DNA from: Paenibacillus sp. YYML68
Lineage (GTDB): Bacteria; Bacillota; Bacilli; Paenibacillales; NBRC-103111
Direction of reading: 5' to 3'
NCBI RefSeq assembly: GCF_027923405.1
Contig: NZ_BQYI01000001.1
Coordinates: forward strand, 3,078,501 to 3,142,500
Length of the DNA: 64,000 nt
This document shows positions 1 through 23,992 of the stretch, one piece after another. Position 1 is the first letter of the stretch. Each line of letters opens with the position of its first letter. The translations under genes and the position numbers were made by a program. The notes beneath the pieces are model-generated. The model saw nothing but the letters and a program-made list of their open reading frames with translations. It had not been told where the DNA came from and did not search any database.

Positions 1-2955
1 CGGATTGCGTATCTCGTGCGCGATACCTGCCGCAAGCTGTCCGACGGCCGATAGCATCTCAGACTTGCGAAGCAGCTCCTCGGTATGCTTTCTTTCAGAA
101 ATATCCTCCGATATTTTCAAGTAATGAATAAGGCGGCCTGTCTGTTCCTTAATCGGTAAGAACTTGACCGACTCCCAGTACACGGACCCACTCTTATGCT
201 TACTCTCCAGCTCCCCTCTCCACGCCCGCCCGCTCTGCAGCGTGCTGATGACCTCAAGAGGAAGGACGCTCGAGGCTTCCCAGTTATGAAGCTCCCAGAC
301 CGAAGTTCCGAGCACGTCCGATGTCTCATACTCCGTCACTTCGCAGAACTTCGGATTCACGTACTCGATCGTCCCGTCGAGATTCGCTATAACAGTTATC
401 GAAGGACTTTGCTCGATCGCGTAGGATAGCTTCAGCATCTCGACATTCGTTTTCTTCAGCTCCGTAATATCGACGAAGGTCAATACGATACCCTTGATGA
501 AGTTATCGCTTGTCCGATATGGAAGAACGCGCATGCTGTACCACCTGCCGCTGCGGCTCTGAATCTCCTTCTCCTCAGGTACGAGCGTCTTCAGCACCCG
601 CTTCGCGTCCTCCAGAATGCCGTCGTACTCGAAGTTATGGGAGATGTGCGAGATCGGGCGGCCGTAATCGACCTCGAGCAGGTTAATCTCCTTCGTGATC
701 ACCGGAGTGAACCTTCTGACGCACATATTGCGGTCAAGAAAGATCGTCCCAATCTTCGTGCTGATCAGGAAATTATCCATGTCGTTATTCAGATCGGTCA
801 GCTCTTGAATCTTGTACTGGTATTCCGTATTGACTGTGACCAGCTCTTCATTCACGGACTGCAGCTCTTCATTCGTGCTCATGAGCTCCTCGTTGGCAGC
901 CACGAGCTCCTCATTCGTCGCCTGCAGCTCCTCGTTGGACGTCTCCAGCTCCTCAATCGTCGCCTGCAGCGATTCTTCGGCGCGCTGCAGCTCCTGCTCC
1001 AGCTCCACAATGCGTTGATTGACGTTGCTCTCGATCTCGAAGGAGTCGACAACCTTGACCGGTGTCGGCTGCGAAGATTCCTCGAAGGTAACGAGCACGA
1101 GCTTGTCGTACTTACGGTTATTCGCAGAGAACGGCTTCACGGCGAGATGGATATACGGAGATTGCTCGGAATTGTTCACCCGAATATCCTTATAGTAAAT
1201 CACACGCTTCTCTTGACGCACCTTCTGTACGGCCGTCACAATCGCAACGGCAAGATGCGCCTCGACCAGCTTGTAGATGTTCCAGCTCGGCTTGCCGCGA
1301 GCGATGACCAGATATGGATTGACATTACCGCTTAGGTGCAGCACGTCGTTGTTTTCATCAATCAGCATGCACGGAGGCATGTGCTCGTCGACGAATGTCG
1401 TGTACATGTCGTCCGTTTTTTTATGCGTTTGATACTCCTTCAAGTTCGAATACCCCCTCCGCGCCATCTGCTGCACCTTGGAGTTGTTGACGTGTTCATT
1501 CAGGTCAATATCGTTGGCTGCGGTTAATGAAACATTAAACTGACGTTGCTGGAAGATGTTCCACTTGCGCTCATACGTTGAGAATAAATTTGTTAGCCTG
1601 CCGATCGTTTCGCTCGGACCGAGAAAGAGGAAGCCGTTCGGATTTAAGGCAAAGTGAAATAAAGATAGAAGCTTCTGTTGCATGTCCGATTGCAAATAAA
1701 TAAGCATGTTACGGCACGTGACCAGGTCCAGATTGCTGAACGGAGGGTCCTTCAATAAATTGTGCGGTGCAAACACGATCATTTTACGTATTTCCTTGTT
1801 GATCGTATACATCTCGCCGTTCTGCGAGAAATACGTATCGAGTATGGACCTCGGCACTCCTTTAAGCGCAGACTCCGGGTAAATGCCTTGACTCGCGAAG
1901 TCGATCGCATCCTTATCCAGGTCGGTTGCGAATATTTTGACCGTATACGACTGATCGAGCTGAAGGGCATATTGATGGAACAGGATGGCAAGCGAGTAGG
2001 CCTCCTCACCGGTGGAGCAACCCGCAACCCAGATCCGAATTTGCCGCTCGCTGCTCTTGTTGTGGAAGATCGCTGGAACGACACGCTTCTCGATGAGCTC
2101 GAACGCCTGAGTGTCGCGGAAGAAGTGAGTAACCCCAATCAGCAAGTCTTTGCCAAGTGCATCCAGCTCCTTCGCATCGCCCTCCAGCACAGCGACATAC
2201 TCTTCGAGCGACCGTTGTCCGACCAGATTCATTCTCCGCTCGATTCGCCGCAGAATGCTATTCTGCTTGTAATAGGTGAAATCAATGCCGTTCAGCTGTC
2301 GCAGCAGCTCGAATATTCGATTCAGCTCCGCCTCCTGATTCGAACTAAACAACGATTCTCTCTCTTCCAACCTCACCGTACTCTCCTCTTGCATCGTTCT
2401 CGAAGCCAAGCTATTGAAGAAGCTTGCTATAGCCTGCGGCGTCATCACATGATCGGTATATCCGCTCAAGCGGGCACTGCTAGGCATTCCGTCGAACTTG
2501 GCCGATTGTTCATCCTGAACAATCACAAGACCACCGCGCTCCTTAATCGTCTCGATCCCTCGCGTACCGTCGCTGCCCGTTCCGGACAATATAACAGCAA
2601 TCGCCTTGCTGCCGACATCCTGGGCGAGCGAAGTCAGGAACACGTCGATCGGCAAATTCAAGCCGGACGATTCATGGTCTGTAACCTGCAGAATACGATC
2701 AATGATTTTAATATCCTTCTTAGGGGGAATGAGATAGATGCAGTTGGGCCGTACCTCCATGAGGTGCTCCGCTTCGTAAATGTTCATCTGCGTATGCTTA
2801 GACAATATTTCGGACATAAAGCTCTTGTAGTTAGGCGATAAATGCTGCACGACGACAAACGACATACCGCTGTCCGAATCCATATGCTCAAAAAACTGCT
2901 GAAGCGCCTCTAAGCCGCCTGCGGAAGCTCCGATTCCTGCAATGTAACTGCTCAT
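1..2955 (-). CDS. CheB-CheR-PAS hybrid sensor histidine kinase (3' end beyond window)
   Basis: The frame is open for 985 codons from ATG at 2955 (AAGGGG six bases upstream) to the window edge. Residues 1-180 are a CheB methylesterase domain with the Ser in GIGASAGG, the His in VVVQHLSP and the Asp in GTGSDGT. Residues about 200-470 are a CheR methyltransferase with the SAM-binding motif [13 protein letters not shown] near 315. A long coiled coil of repeated NEEL units (about 645-720) leads to two PAS domains (about 722-825 and 832-950). The last residues seen are the start of a HisKA H-box, AHEIRNP, with His980. The kinase catalytic domain must lie outside the window. Such fusions are known signalling hybrids. 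The input ligand is unknown, and no receptor or other che gene is nearby. Confidence 0.92.
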
Positions 2956-3037
2956 TCGCTGCCCCTTCCACTCATCCACCGTTAACATTCCTTAACCCCG
3001 TTTCGGTCGGCAACGCCGTTCTGCCAAAATAATAATA

Positions 3038-3043
3038 AGTATA
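3038..3043 (-). promoter_or_regulatory. Extended -10 of the CheB-CheR kinase gene
   Basis: On the minus strand this reads TATACT preceded by TGT, an extended -10, about 85 bases upstream of the start codon. No good -35 is visible at 17 bp. Confidence 0.35.
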
Positions 3044-3179
3044 ACAAAATGACTAAAGTCTCACATATGAAGTTTATAGTAACGTGATACGCGTTTATCC
3101 ACTGAGGTGCCGCGCTCGCGGCGCGGTTATCTAATTTATTTAATAACCTGCTATGGAAACGATGAAACGTTTGAGCTAA

Positions 3180-3185
3180 TATAAT
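3180..3185 (+). promoter_or_regulatory. -10 box for the B12-binding protein operon
   Basis: A perfect TATAAT lies 24 bases upstream of the first start codon. No consensus -35 sits 16-18 bp upstream. Instead there is the 8-bp palindrome AAACGTTT at about 3165-3172, which could be a regulator site. The weak -35 suggests activation or an extra factor; this is inference. Confidence 0.4.
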
Positions 3186-3208
3186 ATAAACTGCCGCAGG
3201 GGGAACAA

Positions 3209-3880
3209 ATGATGAACTTTCACGCTGAACTGTTGGCGGAAGCATTGCTCGCGGGCGATTATGACAAGAGCTGGAGCATTGTCGACCAGCAGACTTCAGC
3301 AGGACGAAACAGCCTGTACATCTACAGCAAGCTACTTACGCAGGCGATGCGCTATATTGGAGAGCTGTGGGAGCACAATTCCATATCGGTAGCAGACGAG
3401 CACCTCGCCTCAGCTGGCTGTGACCGTCTGCTTACCTTATACGGACATATGCAGGTTCAACAGATGGAGCACGCCAAGAAGGTCATGCTGCTATGTATGG
3501 AAGGCGAGCTGCATTATCTCGGTCTTAAGATGATTAGCTCCTTCTTTCAAGAGAACGGCTGGGAGACCCGGTGCTTCGGACCGAACCTGCCACTAGAATA
3601 TGCGCTTGTGCATGCGCTCAGCTGGAAGCCTGATGTAATCGGGATCTCAGTAACGATGGTGCACGCTCTGCCCAAGCTGAAGGAATATGTGCACACGCTC
3701 GAGAACATGCACCATCGTCCGATGGTCATGATTGGAGGCCGATTAGTAGGTAAATACGATCTACGCCCTTACTGTTCAAGCCAAACGATATTGCTCGAAG
3801 ATATGAACGAGCTGCACCAATGGCTGGAGCAGGATACCATGAAAACGTTGTACAAATCCAGTAAAATTTTAGGAGGCTAA
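3209..3880 (+). CDS. Stand-alone cobalamin-binding protein with CarH-like photosensor signature
   Basis: This 223-residue protein has the two-part architecture of B12-binding modules: a helical bundle (about 1-85) and a Rossmann-like cobalamin domain (about 90-215). The cobalt-ligand motif is E100-x-H102-x-x-G105, the E/DxHxxG pattern. The bundle carries W54 followed after exactly nine residues by E64-H65. W-x9-EH is the signature of adenosylcobalamin photoreceptors of the CarH class, where it caps the adenosyl group. Unlike CarH there is no MerR DNA-binding domain, so any light or B12 signal must go through a partner. It starts after GGGGGAACAA and its stop overlaps the next start (TAATG). 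Light sensing is inferred; B12 binding is well supported. Confidence 0.85.
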   Translation: MMNFHAELLAEALLAGDYDKSWSIVDQQTSAGRNSLYIYSKLLTQAMRYIGELWEHNSISVADEHLASAGCDRLLTLYGHMQVQQMEHAKKVMLLCMEGELHYLGLKMISSFFQENGWETRCFGPNLPLEYALVHALSWKPDVIGISVTMVHALPKLKEYVHTLENMHHRPMVMIGGRLVGKYDLRPYCSSQTILLEDMNELHQWLEQDTMKTLYKSSKILGG

Positions 3881-4506
3881 TGTCAATTATGACGAACGCC
3901 CGGTCGATGCTACCCGTCCCCTATTTTGCCATCGACTCCCAATACCGAATCTTAGAACGGTCAGAACTAAGCAGCTCACAATTCCCCCCTACGGAGCAAT
4001 TTCGTGAGCTCGTTGACATCGGCTCGGAGGAGAAGCTGGAGCGCTTCATTCGGCCGATGCAGGATCAACGGGTTGAGCTGAACCTGATGTATGGCCCGCG
4101 CAAGCAGCCCATGCTGTTCGAGGTCCATCAATGCTGGGAGAACGAATCGATCGGGCACCTCGTGCTCATCCGCAACCAGCACAGGCTTCAGCCGCTTCTG
4201 GATTCGATGGAGCGCATGCGTGAGGAGCTCACCCACGTAACGAGACAAGCATCCAGTCCACTCTCTCCGTCCCCATCCCCATCTCGGCACTTGACATCGG
4301 TTCCGCGAAGCGAGGGGAGCGTTCAGGAGAGCTCGAAGGAGAACTATTACTTGGAGCTTCATGACGCGCTGGTCACGATCGACGACCTGCTTGCGATTGT
4401 CCGTTCCACGCTCATGGAATCCGGCAAGGACGCTTACACGATGCTTCTGCTCGAGCAGACCGCCCATGCCAAGGAGCTTGTTCGCAAGCTGCAGCAATAC
4501 AAATAA
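3880..4506 (+). CDS. PAS-like partner protein of the B12-binding protein
   Basis: This 208-residue protein is translationally coupled to the B12-binding gene: its ATG overlaps the upstream TAA, with AGGAGG just before it. Residues about 8-100 look like a PAS-type sensor fold, beginning VPYFAIDSQYRI. A helix follows (about 105-125), then a Ser/Pro-rich linker (about 128-145) and a C-terminal helical pair (about 152-208). No kinase ATPase motif, receiver aspartate or DNA-binding helix is visible. It could be an adaptor between the cobalamin sensor and a kinase, possibly the divergent CheB-CheR hybrid. That role is inferred only from position. Confidence 0.6.
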   Translation: MSIMTNARSMLPVPYFAIDSQYRILERSELSSSQFPPTEQFRELVDIGSEEKLERFIRPMQDQRVELNLMYGPRKQPMLFEVHQCWENESIGHLVLIRNQHRLQPLLDSMERMREELTHVTRQASSPLSPSPSPSRHLTSVPRSEGSVQESSKENYYLELHDALVTIDDLLAIVRSTLMESGKDAYTMLLLEQTAHAKELVRKLQQYK

Positions 4507-4545
4507 ACCCGAATCGAGTATAGACTCGATCGGGTTTATTTTTTT
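4505..4545. terminator. Bidirectional terminator between the PAS-like gene and galU
   Basis: Inverted repeat 4505-4519 / 4524-4537 (AAACCCGA...TCGGGTTT with one mismatch) followed by a T run on the plus strand. It overlaps the stop codon of the upstream gene. A-rich sequence on the left also gives a T tract for the convergent galU transcript. Confidence 0.8.
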
Positions 4546-22350: not shown

Positions 22351-23610
22351 TTAGCCGAGCTTAATACGGGCGAACTTCCGCTTGCCTACCTGCACAATAT
22401 CACCGTCCGCGAGCGTTAGCTCGGCATTCGGATCATCGACCTTCTCCTCGTTCACCTTCATCGCTCCCTGCTGTACGCTGCGGCGCGCCTCGCTGCCAGA
22501 TGCTTGCAGTCCGAGCGTAACTAGCAGCTTCGCGGCGCGAATGGTGCCGTTCTCAAGAGCGTCCAGAGGAAGCACGACCTCCTCGATATCAGTCGGGAGC
22601 GCACGCTGCTGGAACACCGTCACGAAGTGCTGCTGCGCCTCCTCGGCCGCCTGCTCACCGTGATACATACGCACGAACGTGTACGCCAGACGCATTTTCG
22701 CATCGCGGGGATGAACAGTTCCGTCCTCGATGCCGCTGCGCAGCTGCGCAAGCTCATCATTGCTCAAGTCCGTAGCCAGCTCATAATACTTGAGCATCAG
22801 CTCGTCCGGAACGGACATCGACTTGCCGTATATTTCGTTCGGTGCCTCGTCGATACCGATGTAGTTGCCCAGACTCTTCGACATCTTGTTGACGCCGTCC
22901 AGTCCCTCCAGCAGCGGGTTCATGATGGCGACCTGCGTCGGAACACCGTATTCCTTCTGGAGCGTGCGGCCCATCAGCAGGTTGAACTTCTGGTCGGTGC
23001 CTCCGAGCTCAATGTCGCTCTTCAGTGCGACCGAATCGTAACCCTGCATGAGCGGGTAGAAAAATTCGTGGATATGAATCGGCAGTCCCGAGCCGTAACG
23101 CTTCGAGAAGTCGTCACGCTCCAGCATGCGAGCAACCGTAACCTTCGCCGACAGTTGTACGACGTCAGCGAACGTCATCGGGCCGAGCCATTGCGAGTTG
23201 AAGTATAGCTCTGTTTTGCTCTCGTCCAAAATTTTGTAAATCTGCTTCTGGTACGTCTCGGCGTTGCGCTTCACATCGTCCTCGGTCAGCTGCTTACGCG
23301 TCTCCGACTTGCCTGTCGGATCACCAATGCGGCCCGTGAAGTCGCCAATGATCAGCTGAACCTGATGGCCAAGCTCCTGAAATTGACGCAGCTTATGAAG
23401 CACGACCGTATGACCGACATGAATGTCTGGTGCGGACGGGTCAAGCCCGAGCTTCACCTTCAGCGGCGTGCCTGTTGCGACGGAGTCGATCACCTTCTGC
23501 CGAAGCTCGTCCTCCGGTACGATCTCAATGACGCCGCGCCGGATCGTCTCCAGCTGACGGTTTACTTCCTCCTGCTGCTGTACGGTAAGCTGTTCCCATT
23601 TGGTTTCCAT
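22351..23610 (-). CDS. tyrS: Tyrosyl-tRNA synthetase
   Basis: This 419-residue class I synthetase charges tRNA-Tyr. The HIGH motif is the HVGH form (64-67, within LDPSAPDIHVGHTVVL) and the KMSKS motif is intact near residue 243 (GVNKMSKSLGNY). The C-terminal S4-like tRNA-binding domain occupies about 350-419. The GLDPSAPDIH context is that of the TyrZ-type branch rather than classical Bacillus TyrS, so this may be a tyrZ-class enzyme at the tyrS locus. Expression is controlled by the upstream tyrosine T-box. Confidence 0.96.
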   Translation of the reverse strand: METKWEQLTVQQQEEVNRQLETIRRGVIEIVPEDELRQKVIDSVATGTPLKVKLGLDPSAPDIHVGHTVVLHKLRQFQELGHQVQLIIGDFTGRIGDPTGKSETRKQLTEDDVKRNAETYQKQIYKILDESKTELYFNSQWLGPMTFADVVQLSAKVTVARMLERDDFSKRYGSGLPIHIHEFFYPLMQGYDSVALKSDIELGGTDQKFNLLMGRTLQKEYGVPTQVAIMNPLLEGLDGVNKMSKSLGNYIGIDEAPNEIYGKSMSVPDELMLKYYELATDLSNDELAQLRSGIEDGTVHPRDAKMRLAYTFVRMYHGEQAAEEAQQHFVTVFQQRALPTDIEEVVLPLDALENGTIRAAKLLVTLGLQASGSEARRSVQQGAMKVNEEKVDDPNAELTLADGDIVQVGKRKFARIKLG

Positions 23611-23654: not shown

Positions 23655-23992
23655 ATGACAAAAAAAGCCCTCTCATCCACAAAGGGACGAGAAGGCTATG
23701 CTCGCGGTACCACCCTAATTAAAGCCGGTCCACATGGGACGGCTCTCACTCACATCGATAACGGGAACAACCCGATCGGAAGCTACTGAAACTGCGCTCT
23801 GGCTTAAGCCGTGCGCCTTCGTTCCCCTCCGCTGCTCCGGACTGTAATTCGAGACAAGCTCAGCACCGGTTCACACCTCCCACCGACTCTCTGCAAGCTG
23901 CATGCGTTGACTCTACTGCGCGTCCATCGTAGCATTTCACGTATTCGTCCTACCAGCCGCATCAAGCTCGAACGATATGCCGAGGATGCGCT
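23655..23992 (-). ncRNA. T-box leader (tRNA-Tyr sensing) of tyrS
   Basis: Read on the minus strand, the leader has the stem I apical motif (GCAGAGAGTCGGTGG, 23880-23894) and the specifier-loop context GAATTAC, with the tyrosine codon TAC at 23846-23844. It also has the canonical T-box AATTAGGGTGGTACCGCG (23720-23703) and a terminator hairpin with a seven-T run (about 23660-23697). Uncharged tRNA-Tyr should pair with the specifier and T-box and let transcription read through into tyrS. Confidence 0.93.

Follow-up and report, generated by a model that had tools for sequence, protein, structure and literature searches.

A free-standing B12 photoreceptor-type gene next to a CheB-CheR kinase gene in Paenibacillus sp. 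YYML68: a candidate split photocobilin-type sensor

Organization of the locus

The DNA analyzed in this work, referred to below as the window, is a stretch of 64,000 nucleotides of the Paenibacillus sp. YYML68 genome (contig NZ_BQYI01000001.1, positions 3,078,501 to 3,142,500). An initial annotation, made from the letters alone, had placed a B12 photoreceptor-like gene and a small partner gene near its beginning, and both open frames were confirmed. ORF A (3209..3880, + strand) encodes a B12-binding photoreceptor-type protein of 223 aa with a predicted four-helix cap and Rossmann domain. ORF B (3880..4506, + strand) encodes a putative PAS-like adaptor of 208 aa, which in relatives can be part of a fusion with STAS or with a kinase region. 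The ORF A stop codon TAA (3878-3880) and the ORF B start codon ATG (3880) have one base in common (TAATG), and AGGAGG is located just 5' of the ORF B start, for which ATG 3880 and ATG 3889 are the candidates. A terminator-like stem-loop, present on both strands, lies 3' of ORF B (4513..4530), and the next gene (- strand) converges on it.

On the other side, an intergenic region of 220 bp (2989..3208) separates ORF A from a divergent kinase gene (1..2988, - strand) that extends beyond the window. Its full-length ORF (L005 9410-12988) encodes a protein of 1192 aa with CheB, CheR_N, CheR, PAS_10, PAS_9/PAS_4, HisKA and HATPase domains, two Pfam PAS regions among them; the neighbor is thus the CheB-CheR-PAS kinase that the initial annotation had named. 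The kinase also contains a long glutamate-rich helix at about 650-740 as well as coiled-coil matches, and its second-best NCBIfam match, over the histidine kinase region and far under the cut-off, is KinD. Just beyond the window start, 55 bp behind the kinase gene and on the same strand, we found a gene (L005 8341-9354) encoding a CarH-like MerR-B12 protein of 337 aa with a W-x9-EH and an E-x-H-x-x-G motif of its own.

When the whole window was searched against Rfam at the gathering score, neither a cobalamin riboswitch nor any other RNA appeared at this locus. The sole match in the window at this score was a T-box leader (23680-23939, - strand) standing upstream of a gene (22351-23610) that by eye looks like a tyrosyl-tRNA synthetase gene. 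When seven regions upstream of ORF A were compared by eye, the motif TTCGACA, similar to the Spo0A box, was seen in loci L096, L097 and L098; it was not seen in the 200 bp of the window genome that were compared.

Structure of the ORF A and ORF B proteins

Two domains of ORF A pass the Pfam cut-off, B12-binding_2 at 7-71 (1.7e-11) and B12-binding at 91-180 (5.4e-15). They are the only ones to do so: neither a DNA-binding domain nor a MerR HTH was found, and NF052513 (CarH) scores the protein 43 bits against a cut-off of 400. Both W54-x9-E64-H65 and E100-x-H102-x-x-G105 are present, so the description of ORF A as a free-standing B12 photoreceptor-like protein lacking a DNA-binding domain holds. 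In PMC11796333, the signature of AdoCbl light sensors (SignatureFinder) is given as GxxW, EH, GxxH and GxxxP. The whole of it is found in ORF A, as G51-x-x-W54 (W54 codon at 3368..3370), E64-H65 (codons at 3398..3403), G99-E-L-H102 (3503..3514) and G124-PNL-P128 (3578..3592), all on the + strand. By analogy with CtMerR, where His204 has this role, H102 is expected to be the lower ligand of cobalt.

To follow the conservation of these residues, 51 ORF A rows were aligned, 48 non-degenerate and three degenerate; the broken copy of genome G043 was excluded. W54 and E64-H65, on whose conservation in homologues the first reading had been made to depend, are kept jointly with H102 in 47 of the 48 rows that are not degenerate; 31 of the 48 have the full set of eight signature residues. 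Family matches together with this conservation exclude a chance occurrence of the motifs. In the degenerate rows (L099, L100 and L101) W54 and H65 are lost and H102 is kept; these may possibly be light-blind B12 proteins or apo-proteins. It should be added that the degenerate ORF A of these three loci still adjoins the kinase, and that ORF B is absent from them.

By sequence, the closest solved relative of ORF A is CtMerR (8jbs, E 6.2e-16), followed by the photocobilins. A model of ORF A built from two sequences (pLDDT 68.5, pTM 0.57) shows four cap helices and a Rossmann-like part, and in a Foldseek search with this model the top nine matches were chains of CtMerR and photocobilins, 8jbs again being the best, with methyltransferase corrinoid and MetH proteins ranking lower. 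ORF A shares with CarH and CtMerR (5C8D, 8JBS, 8JBT) the predicted cap and Rossmann B12 domain as well as the complete GxxW, EH, GxxH and GxxxP set, but it differs from them in having no MerR HTH and no residue equal to His132 of TtCarH. The residue that follows W54 is E. According to PMC11796333, the His after W ligates cobalt in light-state TtCarH, and the same position is occupied by Arg in CtMerR, Gln in SasPcob and Tyr in AbDPcob. Since E follows W54 and the TtCarH His is missing, the cofactor chemistry of ORF A would be expected to be like that of CtMerR and the photocobilins rather than that of TtCarH. A PduO-type adenosyltransferase is encoded in the window genome, and therefore AdoCbl can probably be made from cobalamin. 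Sequence, modeled fold and conservation support the view of ORF A as a free-standing B12 photoreceptor-type protein. In a wider B12 tree, thinned by class and containing long branches, the ORF A rows grouped together but were intruded on by two MetH rows; these sit on a very long branch, and their placement is not trusted.

The second gene had been annotated as a small PAS-like partner coupled in translation to the first. That it adjoins ORF A, overlaps it by one base and is conserved with it was borne out, whereas the PAS-like character proved weaker. No Pfam family above the cut-off and no PAS profile match at E 0.05 was obtained for ORF B, and among 28 ORF B proteins a PAS profile matched a single one (E 0.032). 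The model of ORF B is poor (pLDDT 46.8), and a fold search with it gave no significant match; the predicted order of strands and helices is nevertheless PAS-like (two strands, three helices, three strands and a long helix). In a profile search against the PDB only weak matches were found, with a best E of 0.058. A PAS fold of ORF B is considered likely. ORF B did not match the PAS regions of the kinase in a profile-profile comparison, a test of low power because the two Pfam PAS regions of the kinase barely match each other (probability 6%).

In the profile-profile comparisons ORF B paired best with a domain at the N terminus of the hybrid kinases encoded after some fused photoglobin-B12 proteins (probability 34%, E 4e-4, in an alignment with only five filled rows). 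Such a fused protein followed by a hybrid kinase (HisKA-HATPase-REC-Hpt) is seen in L102, L105, L106 and similar loci, and the N-terminal domain of some of these kinases is faintly ORF B-like.

Distribution in relatives and exchangeable outputs

In the genus sample (25 genomes, including that of YYML68) we found a single ORF A orthologue, in G008, and a scan of genome contigs likewise revealed one relative only. In the order sample 92 of 392 genomes matched ORF A at E 1e-25. The canonical free-standing form (E 1e-76 or better) was present in eight of these genomes, the copy of G043 being broken, and a degenerate free-standing form in three. The remaining matches were longer proteins or frames of 264-281 aa (G047, G135 and G228; E about 1e-30 to 1e-28), the one in G047 coming from a fused-type gene that is split. 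Within its order ORF A is uncommon (eight of 392 genomes). In the class sample of 398 genomes there were 39 that matched at E 1e-30; two of them had longer proteins, and 37 contained free-standing ORF A (44 matches).

In total 52 loci were compared. Twelve came from earlier searches, including the locus under study, and 40 were the neighborhoods of matches outside the window genome, out of 43 such matches. They fall into several groups by the form of ORF B. In 24 loci ORF B is fused to STAS (phmmer, 1e-4); Pfam confirmed the STAS domain in about 11 of 13 such proteins in one alignment, and neither CheB nor CheR was found beside the STAS-type ORF B in any of the 24, within stretches of about 6-10 kb. 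A short ORF B is present in 17 loci, and CheB-CheR adjoins it in all of them; 16 of these contain full-length kinases and L170 a CheR frame only, and in L064 ORF A is broken. The kinase is divergent in eight and convergent in nine of the 17 loci, L170 counted. Three loci carry ORF B as a fusion with a kinase region (complete in L175 and L176, degenerate in L173). No ORF B was detected in the remaining eight (L099-L101, L145, L149, L151, L153 and L169), of which L169 contains a CheB fragment. We also observed that L145, L149, L151 and L153 carry an ABM gene, a photoglobin gene and ORF A, yet no detectable ORF B.

Output labels changed four times on the ORF A tree, as compared with a mean of 21.6 after shuffling. 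In the best tree a weakly supported branch (69/0) separates the kinase loci from the rest, and a single origin of the STAS loci is compatible with the tree test (p-AU 0.076). Two orientations of the kinase, few changes on the tree and one weak branch suggest that the link between ORF A and the kinase was kept through rearrangement and may have arisen once.

The STAS end of ORF B from L006 matched YtvA_fam only (NCBIfam, below the cut-off), which is reminiscent of the LOV-STAS stressosome photoreceptors of the YtvA type. Here the match is limited to the STAS end, light sensing would reside in a separate B12 protein, and the window ORF B itself has no STAS.

Kinase matches (threshold E 1e-120, some of them partial) were found in 24 of the 103 genomes of the family sample, and 20 of these 24 genomes have no ORF A; for near-full-length matches the figure is 11 of 15. 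The kinase is therefore not dedicated to the ORF A sensor. Thus, of the three-gene arrangement put forward in the initial annotation, the side seen from the short ORF B stands (CheB-CheR adjoins it in every locus), while the kinase is commonly found without ORF A.

The CarH-like gene was revealed in six of the 25 genus genomes (E 1e-60) and adjoins the kinase in four of them, G000, G008, G002 and G007. In G002 and G007 it stands beside the kinase in the absence of ORF A. In G007 an ORF B homologue (L209 621-1262, - strand) is located beside the kinase, the CarH-like gene is on the kinase's other side, and no ORF A was found. As the kinase occurs without ORF A, also in company with ORF B or the CarH-like gene, it looks older than its link with ORF A. 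The latter looks like an input that ORF B and the kinase either acquired or lost.

Photoglobin and ABM genes and the proposed sensor

Besides ORF A and the fused ORF B, the STAS loci contain genes for a helical protein of about 120 aa (21 of 24 loci) and for an ABM protein of about 100 aa (20 of 24) within the stretches covered, usually located directly upstream of ORF A and on its strand. The ABM protein of L006 matches the HmuQ/IsdG heme-degrading models under the cut-off (best 59.4 against 130 bits); other ABM proteins, that of the window genome included, were recognized with a profile built on such proteins. For the helical protein, Pfam Phycobilisome matched the homologue from G244 (E 0.0086, under the cut-off) and gave no match for those from G200 and L006, and profile comparison with the PDB gave weak matches to phycocyanin (the best, E 0.013) and to 8j2y/8j2x/8j2w (E 0.07-0.09). 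We call this protein photoglobin on the basis of its weak likeness to phycobiliproteins and to the photocobilin globin and of published work.

A stand-alone photoglobin-type gene is present in the window genome at 4437680-4438024, 1.36 Mb from ORF A. Its product is 53% identical to the copy beside the kinase in G244, and the gene overlaps an ABM gene by 4 bases (L179 5963-6699). Photoglobin genes unlinked to ORF A were also found in G008, G060, G043, G120, G712 and G490. In six of these seven genomes, YYML68 included, an ABM gene stands beside the unlinked photoglobin; the exception is G490, where none lies within 1.5 kb. In loci L096-L098, L139, L142, L144, L147, L150 and L152 the photoglobin gene directly precedes the kinase gene.

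In the class sample, where frames of 120-254 aa (E 1e-15) were scored as stand-alone photoglobin, judged by frame length, such frames were found in 34 of the 37 genomes with ORF A and in none of the 361 others; related genomes share ancestry, so that these and the following counts are not independent and are inflated. In 22 of the 361 there was only a long photoglobin frame (357-391 aa), taken as the fused kind. In the order sample (E 1e-28) the corresponding numbers were eight of eight and two of 384, the two being G047, with the split fused-type gene mentioned above, and G012, with a photoglobin-type frame and no ORF A match. Three genomes with ORF A (G529, G507 and G393) gave no photoglobin match, and in the three genomes with degenerate ORF A the only photoglobin is of the long-frame type.

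Based on these data, we favor with moderate confidence the hypothesis that ORF A is the B12 half of a split photocobilin-type sensor that signals through ORF B to the kinase. The sensor is probably of the split photocobilin type because the genome encodes a stand-alone photoglobin beside a gene resembling those of heme-degrading enzymes. We infer that in the dark the helical cap and the Rossmann domain would enclose AdoCbl, H102 lying below it and W54 and E64-H65 around the adenosyl group, and that light would break the Co-C bond and move the cap. The photoglobin probably binds a bilin produced by the IsdG/HmuQ-like enzyme and may dock on ORF A, which would extend the response towards the red. 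The change in ORF A would then be passed to ORF B by protein contact and further to the neighboring CheB-CheR-PAS kinase. The link to this output is supported by G007, in which ORF B stays next to the kinase even without ORF A. The signaling route suggested by the initial annotation, from a B12 or light sensor to the kinase by contact, is thus partly supported by the sequences and models.

Signaling of this kind has precedents. The photocobilins SasPcob and AbDPcob (8J2W, 8J2X, 8J2Y) have the same B12 light signature and a photoglobin, and, in PMC10979010, a stand-alone member is described as acting on another protein by contact. Unlike in photocobilins, the B12 domain and the photoglobin are here encoded by separate genes, unlinked in the window genome, the ORF A chain comprises B12 domains only, and the output probably goes via the PAS-like adaptor and the CheB-CheR kinase. 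It should be mentioned that STAS and SpoIIE partners have already been suggested for an actinobacterial photocobilin (PMC10979010). The free-standing B12 photoreceptor AerR of Rhodobacter capsulatus is cotranscribed with a PAS-type partner, CrtJ, and acts on it by contact (PMC9144470). However, CrtJ is a DNA-binding PAS protein, while ORF B is small, putatively PAS-like, devoid of an HTH and encoded beside a kinase gene. Separate globin and B12-binding genes are also known from the BBAG-2 and pre-2 clusters, where they are associated with bilin synthesis (PMC10151467); in the present case there is an IsdG/HmuQ-like ABM protein instead of heme oxygenases, and the outputs are kinases or STAS proteins.

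In Bacillus cereus, according to PMC4574943, the methyltransferase RsbM acts on the histidine kinase RsbK by methylating its signaling helix, while in our case the kinase itself includes CheR and CheB as fused domains. By inference from RsbM-RsbK, the substrate of CheR and CheB would be the glutamate-rich helix at about 650-740. A broader and tentative reading, which we regard as possible but doubtful, is that a plug-in two-chromophore sensor of separate proteins (the heme-degrading enzyme, the photoglobin, the B12 protein and the PAS-like adaptor) is a common input of Bacilli to either the stressosome (STAS) or a kinase, and that the kinase of the window's branch would be a light-sensing histidine kinase tuned by reversible methylation of its glutamate-rich helix, a chemotaxis-type adaptation. 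The tuning of the light signal by methylation is proposed because the kinase carries its own CheR and CheB.

Other interpretations were also considered. It is rather unlikely that ORF A with AdoCbl acts alone as a green-light sensor with CarH-like chemistry and that the photoglobin operon is separate and co-occurs by chance. The large distance between the two genes in the window genome and the three ORF A genomes lacking a photoglobin match agree with such independence, but stand-alone photoglobin is absent from all 361 class-sample genomes without ORF A, a photoglobin match lies within 21 of the 24 STAS loci, and fused B12-photoglobin proteins bind both chromophores (PMC10979010). It is also unlikely that ORF A responds to cobalamin itself, through its amount or its redox state (AdoCbl versus aquo- or methyl-cobalamin), instead of to light, with the kinase answering to B12 supply. 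The cofactor residues would fit this equally well, and in the open-access literature, as far as it was accessible, we found no light experiment on a protein of the ORF A family. Against it, in a light sensor of known structure the residues of the signature are packed against the adenosyl group (PMC11796333), and ORF A is associated with a photoglobin and with a gene resembling those of heme-degrading enzymes.

It seems improbable that ORF A and ORF B act, in the manner of AerR, on the CarH-like MerR protein encoded behind the kinase gene instead of on the kinase itself. The gene for this protein does follow the kinase gene in both G000 and G008, where ORF A lies on the opposite side; yet in G002 and G007, which lack ORF A, it is still next to the kinase, and of the 16 loci that combine a short ORF B with a full-length kinase, 14 showed no MerR-HTH match in the stretch covered. 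Finally, it is highly improbable that ORF A serves in a methyltransferase system as a methyl-carrying corrinoid protein of the MtbC/MtgC/MttC type. Among NCBIfam models TIGR02370 does match it best (E 6.1e-12), but the score of 45.3 bits against a cut-off of 215.3 and the fold search, topped by photoreceptors, led us to reject this identity, and in addition ORF A has the light signature and by eye no methyltransferase or activation gene adjoins it.

B12 photoreceptors, including stand-alone ones, photoglobins and pairs of globin and B12 genes are already known (PMC11796333, PMC10979010, PMC10151467 and PMC9144470). A PAS-like adaptor with exchangeable STAS or CheB-CheR kinase outputs was not found in the open-access literature searched, to the extent of its accessible text. 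If the split photocobilin-type sensor is real, it would name concrete parts for the sensing of green, and perhaps red, light in non-phototrophic Bacilli and would tie light sensing to a sporulation-kinase-like output or to stressosome-type STAS proteins. Since outputs are swapped behind one sensor, removing genes offers a way to test the route, and sensors split into B12 and bilin proteins would be of use in optogenetics.

Two further observations were made by eye. The ABM-photoglobin pair of the window genome is located near a sigI/rsgI-like pair. In G060, RsbW-, RsbV- and PP2C-like genes (L063 1762-4128) lie about 5 kb from ORF B, and a similar PP2C-like gene is present in G043 (L064 3594-5003).
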